Both the position numbers and the translations under genes were made by a program. This document shows positions 11,201 through 12,509 of a stretch of DNA of 12,523 bases, piece after piece. The DNA is from a bacterium (GTDB lineage: Bacteria; Hydrothermota; UBA3072; B12-G15). The notes under the pieces are model-generated. The model saw only the letters and a list, made by a program, of their open reading frames with translations. It ran no database searches and was not told the origin of the DNA. Every line of letters begins with the position of its first letter. Position 1 is the stretch's first letter. The DNA lies in NCBI GenBank assembly GCA_003646055.1, contig QNDZ01000033.1, positions 1-12,523 of the forward strand. Direction: 5' to 3'.

Positions 11201-11471
11201 CAATTAAAATATACTGATTTTTTATGAAATTGTCAAACATGCCTCCTGGAAATTTCTTCTTCTATAAAAAGGTTTGTCAAGTGGGGAGATGAAAAACTTT
11301 ACATTTTATCTCCTTTTATATATATTATAAGTGAGGATAAACCGAACCTGTACCTGAGGAGTTTAACCCTACCTTCTATGCGCGCATCTGTGAGAGGCGC
11401 AAGGTATATGTTCGGGGACTGGGTTGCCCAAACTTGACAAGGGCTATAAAAAGCCAAGAAGAAAATGGAGC
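11201..11471. other. Non-coding stretch between the lipoprotein and transposase genes
   Basis: 271 nt with no convincing gene. It holds the lipoprotein promoter (11208-11236), a second lone TTGACA (minus strand, 11280-11275), an AT-rich run with TATAAT (minus, 11329-11324) but no matching -35 box, and most of the paired hairpins assigned to the IS110 guide RNA (11342 onward). The right end of the insertion sequence should fall somewhere between about 11240 and 11342 but cannot be placed, since this family lacks clear terminal repeats or target duplications. Confidence 0.6.
11208..11236 (-). promoter_or_regulatory. Sigma70-type promoter of the lipoprotein/activator operon, leaderless arrangement
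   Basis: On the minus strand TTGACA (11236-11231, perfect) is followed after 17 nt by TATATT (11213-11208, 5 of 6). Seven bases separate it from the lipoprotein ATG at 11200, so +1 should fall at the ATG. No Shine-Dalgarno sequence precedes the gene. This is the best sigma70 promoter in the window. Confidence 0.68.
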
Positions 11472-11482
11472 TCACCCAGTCC
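11342..11482 (-). ncRNA. Candidate IS110-family guide RNA (bridge/seek RNA)
   Basis: Two perfect-stem structures abut without a gap. The first is GGACTGGGT (11416-11424) with ACCCAGTCC (11474-11482), 9 bp, enclosing 49 nt that include a GGCT/AGCC hairpin (11442-11455). The second is CCGAAC (11342-11347) with GTTCGG (11410-11415), enclosing TACCT/AGGTA (11370-11374 with 11402-11406) and TGCGC/GCGCA (11379-11383 with 11397-11401), with a one-sided internal loop of 22 nt. One arm covers the last transposase codons and its stop. By family knowledge IS110 recombinases use a structured RNA from a non-coding end of the element, located 3' of the gene in IS1111-type members. Strand, exact ends and function are inferred; a purely structural DNA end is the alternative. 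Confidence 0.5.
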
Positions 11483-12509
11483 TCCTCATTTTATTTACAT
11501 TTCTCTCTACAAATGTATCATAGGTTATATGTTGTTTTAATAGATGATATACCATTCTGGAGATTTTCCTTGCAAGTGCTATCTTTGCTACATTTTTACC
11601 TTTTTTATACATCTGCTTTTTATAATATTCATATAAGTATCCTTTTCCTATCCTCACTATCCCGGTTGCTATCTCTACATATATCCATTTAAGATACATA
11701 TTTGCCTGCCTGGAAAGATGCCCTGTCTTGAACTTTCCACCACTCCCTTTCACCCTCGGAACAAGCCCTGCGTAACTGGAATATCTCTTTGCAGATGGAA
11801 ACCTATCAATAGGTCCTGTTTCGTAAAGAATTGTTAATGCAGAGATAGTTCCTATCCCAGGAACACTCTTAAGAAGGAAAACCTCTGGTGTCTCCTTTGC
11901 TATCCTTTCTATCTTTCTATTCCACTCCTCTATGTATTTATCCAGATTATCTATGAGAGATAAATAATGTGGTAATATCTCGGTGTAAGGAGAGGGAAGA
12001 TTTAATTGTTCTAATTCTTTCCTCCTTTTTCCTCTCCATATATCTCCATGGGAAAGGACTATATTCAATTTCGCAAGTATGCTGCGGACAAGATTCTTAA
12101 ACCGTGCACGAATCCTTACCAGAGTTAACCTTGTCCTCAACATCTCACGAATCTCTCTCTCCTCCATGGATGGAATCCATGCAAAAGGAATAAGGTCTGC
12201 CCTCAATAGATGGGAAAGCATCCTGGCATCAACTTTGTCTGTCTTTACTTTCGCATATGCAATTGCCTTGGTCTGCAAAGGATTGGATAAAACCACGTCT
12301 ATTCCCATCTCTTGAAGTAAATCCACAAACCAATACCAGTTCCTTGTGGCCTCAAGAACAACCTTCGCATTATCACCAAATTGAGACATAACCTCTCTTA
12401 TACTACTTTTATCATTGCTTACCCGCCTTTCTACCACCTCTCCCGTAGCATCATTGAAACCATATACCTGGGTAAAGTTTTTGTGTAAATCAACCCCTAC
12501 ATAAAACAT
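11472..12509 (-). CDS. IS110-family transposase (DEDD recombinase)
   Basis: 345 residues, the normal length. The N-terminal RuvC-like DEDD domain shows D7 in GVDLHK, E53 in LEAT, and D91 and D94 in TDKVDA. A helical middle follows, then the Tnp_20 domain from SVPGIG (215-220) through SSYAGLVPRVKGSGG (244-258) and GHLSRQANMYLKW (263-275). This domain carries the family's conserved serine; I cannot say which one here. IS110 enzymes cut and join DNA through this composite site, guided by an element-encoded RNA, without target duplication. The ATG at 12509 follows an AAGGAGGT site by 4 nt. No frameshift or truncation is visible. Its last codons form one arm of the hairpin in the candidate guide RNA. 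Confidence 0.95.
   Translation of the reverse strand: MFYVGVDLHKNFTQVYGFNDATGEVVERRVSNDKSSIREVMSQFGDNAKVVLEATRNWYWFVDLLQEMGIDVVLSNPLQTKAIAYAKVKTDKVDARMLSHLLRADLIPFAWIPSMEEREIREMLRTRLTLVRIRARFKNLVRSILAKLNIVLSHGDIWRGKRRKELEQLNLPSPYTEILPHYLSLIDNLDKYIEEWNRKIERIAKETPEVFLLKSVPGIGTISALTILYETGPIDRFPSAKRYSSYAGLVPRVKGSGGKFKTGHLSRQANMYLKWIYVEIATGIVRIGKGYLYEYYKKQMYKKGKNVAKIALARKISRMVYHLLKQHITYDTFVERNVNKMRRTG

Follow-up and report, generated by a model that had tools for sequence, protein, structure and literature searches.

The Element and Its Transposase

The window, by which we mean the whole stretch of 12,523 nucleotides analysed here, is contig C33 of a genome assembled from a metagenome. This assembly totals 1.87 Mb over 277 contigs, has a completeness of 80.6% and shares its genus with a genome labelled candidate division WOR-3. 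Its minus strand carries, at 11472..12509, the complete gene of an IS110-family DEDD transposase of 345 amino acids, recognised by its reading frame, profile matches and conserved residues, with the stop codon at 11472-11474. The protein scores 250.9 bits against the NCBIfam IS110 "RNA-guided transposase" model (cut-off 140) and matches both Pfam IS110 domains, the C-terminal one being PF02371; a DEDD transposase with this C-terminal domain is what characterises the IS110/IS1111 superfamily. Residues D7, E53, D91, D94 and S/T256 are conserved with at most one exception each among 31 aligned proteins. An AlphaFold2 model built with 31 sequences (mean pLDDT 88) found its best structural matches in the recombinases of IS621 and ISCro4, whose structures were determined together with bridge RNA, and the sequence search agrees that these two are the closest.

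The contig stops 14 bp upstream of the transposase start, and therefore the left end of the element is absent from the window. Two other contigs of the host assembly, C194 and C80, both break off within one and the same left end. C194 very probably represents the left flank belonging to the window copy, given that the host flanks of C194 and of the window are collinear with the two flanks of the insertion L003 in a sister species. C80 (locus L008 of the host assembly, G000) is the left end of another copy at another site, so that the host genome has at least two copies; its left flank, ATATTAAG, does not fit the left guide of the window, and the RNA of this copy is missing from the assembly. 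The same assembly also holds, at C11:17980-18129 (L010), a fragment of another IS110-type transposase: an 80-aa frame, located at the end of a contig, scores 29.7 bits against PF02371.

The Twin Hairpin at the 3' End of the Gene

The candidate guide RNA (seekRNA or bridge RNA) occupies 11342..11482 on the minus strand, a span that gives its folded part, with putative RNA ends, and that was defined by covariation and a covariance model. It is made up of a target loop (loop 1, 11416-11482) and a donor loop (loop 2, 11342-11415). The preliminary description had drawn two outer stems of 9 and 6 bp abutting at 11415/11416, and their coordinates proved exact: loop 1 is closed by 9 perfect pairs between its 5' arm (11474..11482) and its 3' arm (11416..11424), and loop 2 by 6 perfect pairs (11342-11347 with 11410-11415), the latter being the outer part of a 14-nt pair with 86% complementarity. 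The 5' arm of loop 1 takes in the last codons of the gene together with one base, the first, of its stop codon, and the structure does begin, as had been proposed, inside the final codons of the transposase. An inner hairpin is present inside each outer stem, also as described; in loop 1 it is a covarying helix, GGCT...AGCC at 11442..11455, which separates the two target guides and has changes on both sides in 4 of 4 pairs. The large single-stranded part drawn for loop 1 did not stand in full, because some of it is taken up by a further short helix within stem 1, which the comparison of relatives brought out (columns 16-19 pairing with columns 65-68 in alignment A2).

The 141 nt fold on the transposase strand with -51.4 kcal/mol, compared with -37.9 (sd 3.8) in dinucleotide shuffles (z -3.54; one of 200 shuffles as good), while the opposite strand gives z -4.78 relative to its own shuffles (none of 200 as good); since the opposite strand folds at least as well against shuffles, folding energy does not decide the strand. 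Rfam gave nothing at gathering scores across the entire window and, at a permissive threshold, two matches far below gathering scores on the opposite strand.

Conservation of the RNA among Relatives

Eleven related RNAs were aligned by sequence alone (MAFFT), and our conclusions rest on alignment A2, an alternative alignment (A4) having been set aside because it contains one spurious antisense row (L044, plus strand). The consensus structure has 19 base pairs, 12 of them with changes on both sides, and 93.2% of the 205 cells are paired; the covariation score was equalled in none of 500 shuffles and the number of pairs with both-side changes in one of 500, and pairing falls to 17–47% when partners are slid by 1–3 columns. 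A further measure of covariation, the count of further pair types, was not above shuffles (21 vs. 22.8). The compensatory changes that the preliminary description called for are thus present in the relatives.

A covariance model built from the 11 RNAs matched 12 of 147 WOR-3-phylum genomes at E <= 0.01; eight of the 12 had contributed RNAs to the model, and G117, G066, G110 and G003 had contributed none. The matches outside the training set include two in G117 and three more in G070 that nearly duplicate trained ones, and the untrained matches L017, L019 and L021 lie at the 3' ends of transposases 33–40% identical to that of the window. L199 (G003 C91:12611-12738) is a weak RNA-model match (E 5.9e-4) in a genome with no listed transposase match. 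Across 28 loci with transposases or fragments of them, 16 have the RNA at the 3' end of the gene and on its strand, so that the structure belongs to the 3' side where it is found, as had been expected; the other 12, several of them fragments, have no significant RNA-model match. L003 has only about 57 bp between its TATAAT and the start codon, which leaves no room for an upstream RNA. A long non-coding region with an RNA downstream of the gene, the arrangement of the IS1111 group, is what is found here.

Several copies in G070 (L189, L201, L205, L206 and L207) consist of the transposase 3' tip and the full guide RNA only and are probably relics; these short copies sit behind a separate repeat of about 220 bp with dozens of matches in that genome. 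Reading them as small non-autonomous mobile elements was rejected, because the preceding sequence is an independent many-match repeat and the left boundaries differ. Viral contigs yielded no relative by protein query, by alignment query or by right-end pattern, and the at least 120 stretches found in them with a loose RNA pattern were judged to be chance; among plasmids, at least 5000 records contain transposases of under 60% identity.

Target Guides and Host Flanks

Loop 1 carries two guides that can be read against the host sequence. The right target guide, TTTCTTCTT (11456..11464, minus strand), comprises the nine bases right before the inner hairpin and is the reverse complement of the right flank AAGAAGAAA, which with the core AA (11260-11261, placed from L022) lies at 11253..11261 on the same strand. 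The left target guide, TTGTCAAGT (11432..11440, minus strand), sits after the inner hairpin and equals the left junction on C194, the contig attributed by synteny with L003; it is composed of host flank, the core AA, and then the G and T of the left end. The same arrangement with dissimilar sequences recurs in L004 (AGTTTTTT), L042 (ACTATAAAA), L022 (AAAATAAT), L021 (CGTCCCCG), L197 (GTGTCCCG), L017 (GGTTCATC) and L019 (TGACCCTG). The complement of the top strand therefore precedes that of the bottom strand (right guide 11456-11464 before left guide 11432-11440), as in IS1111 elements, and the order is the same in the relatives.

In nine dissimilar elements, the right guide matched its own flank over a mean of 8.11 nt vs. 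3.15 nt for foreign flanks, a difference reached in none of 200,000 permutations; a right flank was available for 16 elements, of which these were nine (that of L041 was 5 nt long, and L003, L044, L189, L205, L043 and L204 were excluded as near copies). The hairpins and end anchors used in the guide tests had been chosen by eye with the sequences already seen, and L018, L020, L023, L024, L026 and L028 were left out of them. Because the sequences had been seen before testing and L201 is the best of its group of four, the test was repeated with each of the four and with 15 elements, and was widened further. All 18 elements gave a mean run of 7.17 nt on their own flanks vs. 3.47 on foreign ones, and one element per group (n = 11) gave 7.18 vs. 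3.26, each with none of 100,000 permutations as good. Among the elements added, L017 fits (8 nt), and L050 and L051 do not (3 nt) and were kept in the 18-element version; the result holds. The latter two, from G075, are broken copies of an L019-like element whose right flanks misfit the guide in runs of 3, and the left flank of L051 fits its guide with a run of 9.

The left guide gave 7.78 nt on its own flank vs. 4.64 on foreign ones, with one of 200,000 permutations as good (nine of 11 elements, L003 and L043 left out), a weaker test because several elements share TGTCAAG on the left; the left guide of L021 matched over only 4 nt. When G-U pairs are allowed, matches lengthen (L044 from 4 to 9, L189 from 5 to 8), which is consistent with an RNA from the transposase strand. 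The placement of the guide RNA on that strand is therefore supported, not proven, by these wobbles together with the junction promoter described below, which points along the transposase strand. An RNA encoded by the element with guides that match the target flanks is a further characteristic of the IS110/IS1111 superfamily, and the comparison of loops with targets and donor ends proposed in the preliminary description found loop 1 matching its own flanks and loop 2 the ends of the element.

Element Ends, Core and Predicted Joined-End Promoter

The right end of the element was read on the minus strand, with the last bases ATAG at 11262..11265 (a boundary set by homology with L022, to within one base), and with the subterminal inverted repeat CAAACCTTTTTAT at 11264..11276, which has a 13-bp perfect partner in L003 and 12 of 13 matching bases in C194. 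Exact empty sites exist for L022: in its own genome and in two sibling genomes, the uninterrupted target is GAATCA-AAAATAATCTT. With the element inserted, the left junction is GAATCAAA|GGATATAAT and the right junction CAAAG|AAAATAATCTT, so that this insertion has an overlap of AA and no duplication beyond it. By analogy with these sites, the core of the window element is placed at the minus-strand AA of 11260-11261, possibly shifted by a base. Searches for an empty site of the window element found none, and for L014 the matches in related genomes start at least 69 nt into the query and none reaches the junction. The rebuilt 14-base target of the window, TTGTCAAGAAGAAA, has no perfect copy in the rest of this assembly and two places with one mismatch. 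Manual placement of the boundary by the 7/3 rule, which would assign GTTA to the target, was rejected in view of the L022 empty sites and the constant TATAAT of the left ends.

Loop 2 contains the left donor guide, ATAGAAG at 11373..11379 (minus strand), and in 8 of 8 elements this heptamer (ATAGAAG, ATAGCAG or AAAGAAG) equals the right end, the core and the first base, G, of the left end. A possible right donor guide, TATACCTT (11401..11408, minus strand), can pair at 7 of its 8 positions with AAGTTATA, a stretch of the joined ends, in a weak match found by eye. Donor-loop guides that match the element ends, here complete for the left and partial for the right, also belong to the definition of the superfamily.

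When the ends were joined in a script, TTGACA (the -35 half, 11275..11280 on the minus strand) and TATAAT came to stand 16 or 17 bases apart, with 12 of 12 consensus bases in 8 of 8 elements; a shift of the boundary by a base changes this spacing and leaves the hexamers as they are. A promoter sequence formed by the joined ends is an IS1111 feature, and a transcript started there would cover the gene and continue into the RNA. Elsewhere in the genome, the CTTGACA...TATAAT pattern has four matches vs. none for the reversed control. The lipoprotein-like gene left of the element has a promoter-like sequence of its own, TTGACA-17-TATATT (window 11203-11240, by eye), and two outward-pointing promoter-like sequences thus bracket the element.

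Subterminal inverted repeats, in IS1111 usually of 11–13 bp, are perfect over 13 bp in L003, reach 12 of 13 between the window and C194, and are shorter where perfect in L041 (9), L004 and L022 (10) and L043 (8). In the joined ends, the spacing between them is 15 bp for the window and L003, 13 bp for L004, L022 and L043, and 10 bp for L014, L041 and L042, so that only the last three keep the usual, although not definitional, 7 + 3 bp extensions of IS1111, with 10 bp between repeats, described in PMC11187229. L004 has about 150 bp more between its left end and the start codon than its relatives, and upstream of its gene there is a perfect-looking inverted repeat around TCTTCTTTTG...CAAAAGAAGA.

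Two Species, One Site

The elements of the window and of L003 are 98% identical at one and the same site, and the surrounding host DNA is 79–88% identical. The right flank is AAGAAGAAA in the window vs. AAGCAGAAA in L003, and the right guide is TTTCTTCTT vs. TTTCTGCTT, so that flank and guide differ between the two species by one matching base. RNA and right end together align over 210 bases with 4 substitutions and 1 gap, and one of the 4 substitutions is precisely what preserves the guide-flank pairing. Because the element is more alike than its surroundings, we suggest that it entered or re-entered each species separately, its guide in each case fitting the local sequence; the same pattern could also have arisen by gene conversion between copies.

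Bases after the Core and Promoter -35 Boxes

The two bases that follow the core agree between the left guide and the left junction in 8 of 8 elements: GT/GT in the window and L003, GA/GA in L004, L014, L041 and L042, and GG/GG in L022 and L043, where the third base fails; these eight elements represent few independent changes. As the empty sites of L022 show, its GG is not derived from the target and is, therefore, the element's own. Bases of such a kind were named handshake guides in IS621 (PMC11208158).

In the window and L003, L004, L014 and L041, the left flank starts a promoter-like sequence pointing away from the element, and TTGTCAAG read backwards is CTTGACAA. The best promoter scores, out of 12, are 10 for the window, 10 for L003, 12 for L004, 9 for L014 and 11 for L041, and elsewhere 7 for L042, 8 for L022 and 8 for L043; among 20,000 random stretches, 932 score at least 9 and 187 at least 10. 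That the left guides of this branch are often aimed at a host promoter -35 box, which the insertion would leave intact, stays a suggestion, because the guide itself fixes the -35 half and only the -10 half is independent. We put forward tentatively, with somewhat more doubt than belief, that the target loop reads the first bases of the left end in a handshake-like manner with the opposite guide, pairing with the strand-exchange product, and that left guides are often aimed at host -35 boxes; both features are possibly new.

Discussion

The window almost certainly contains the right part of an IS1111-type mobile element, with its transposase gene, guide RNA and right end, for which we propose a guide-directed cycle; its IS1111-type assignment comes from RNA position, guide order and inverted repeats. 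The twin hairpin, proposed from the window as a candidate guide RNA with two binding loops, gains support from covariation, from its 3' position and from the matches of its loops to flanks and ends.

A terminator, or a structure that stabilises the transposase mRNA, would also account for stable, GC-rich stems at this 3' end, the fit between guides and flanks then being accidental. However, no T-run follows the stems, the guides lie in unpaired parts and fit their own flanks far better than foreign ones, and a matching single-base change in guide and flank separates the sister species, which leaves this explanation extremely improbable. It is very unlikely, although the NCBIfam name is IS110 and joining the ends leaves 15 bp, not 10, between the inverted repeats, that the RNA is one of the IS110 branch, with guides in the order left, right: the RNA lies 3' of the gene, its right-flank (top-strand) guide precedes the left guide and L003 has 13-bp inverted repeats, all as described for IS1111 in PMC11187229.

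The system could also be a genuine IS1111-type one of which the window copy is inactive and its RNA a relic, a reading to which the one mismatch between the left inverted repeat of C194 and the right one, the degraded copies of relatives in G070, and the element and host site already common to the sister species lend some weight. Against it stand the complete reading frame with its catalytic residues, the 9-nt guide matches on both sides and the second left end on C80, which implies at least two copies, and we regard it as unlikely.

The cycle that we propose is built around what is observed, namely a conserved structure, guide matches to flanks and ends, the promoter sequence of the joined ends and the exact empty sites of L022. 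The transposase would bind the RNA. Through its two guides, loop 1 would base-pair with the flanking host DNA or with a new target, and the partners of loop 2 would be the element's own ends. The element would leave as a circle, in which the joined ends would form a strong promoter and transcribe gene and RNA together, the RNA presumably being processed from this transcript. The circle would then enter a new site that matches the target guides, the strands being exchanged at a core some two bases long (AA).

The seekRNA/bridge-RNA plan with the IS1111 guide order is itself already known. The RNA 3' of the gene with the top-strand guide first is the arrangement of the IS1111 family (PMC11187229; PMC11208160), and the window element resembles the IS1111-family seekRNA elements ISEc11, ISKpn4, ISPst6 and ISPa11 (Siddiquee et al. 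2024, PMC11187229), as these are described there, in the RNA 3' of the transposase gene; in the top-strand complement 5' of the bottom-strand one, with overlap at the insertion point; in subterminal inverted repeats, a joined-end promoter and no target duplication beyond the core; and in the GL-P----S/T motif of the transposase. It differs from the published IS1111 elements in its uncultured WOR-3 host, the likeness to their seekRNAs being one of plan, by description, and from their usual spacing between repeats. With the bridge RNA of IS621 (Durrant et al. 2024, PMC11208160; Hiraizumi et al. 2024, PMC11208158), it shares separate target and donor loops with two guides each for opposite strands, a core included in the pairing, and the recombinase fold. 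In contrast, the IS621 bridge RNA is described as lying 5' of its gene with the guide order reversed, and its core is CT, compared with the AA placed here by analogy. The RNA-guided TIGR-Tas proteins (PMC12045711) are related (NCBIfam NF052498, 29.7 bits with a cut-off of 100; fold match E 6.5e-7), whereas here there is a mobile element with its own ends. Among the openly licensed PubMed Central papers, we found none on these WOR-3 IS1111-type elements.

If the tentative reading of the bases after the core is true, the handshake principle of IS621 would hold for the reversed guide order too, and, if left guides do read promoter -35 boxes, this would be a new targeting habit. With the elements described here, the range of RNA-guided IS1111-type elements comes to include an uncultured phylum, and their guides can be read from sequence alone; at one site in two species, guide and target change together; and the family offers natural guide/target pairs for testing the reprogramming of these recombinases.
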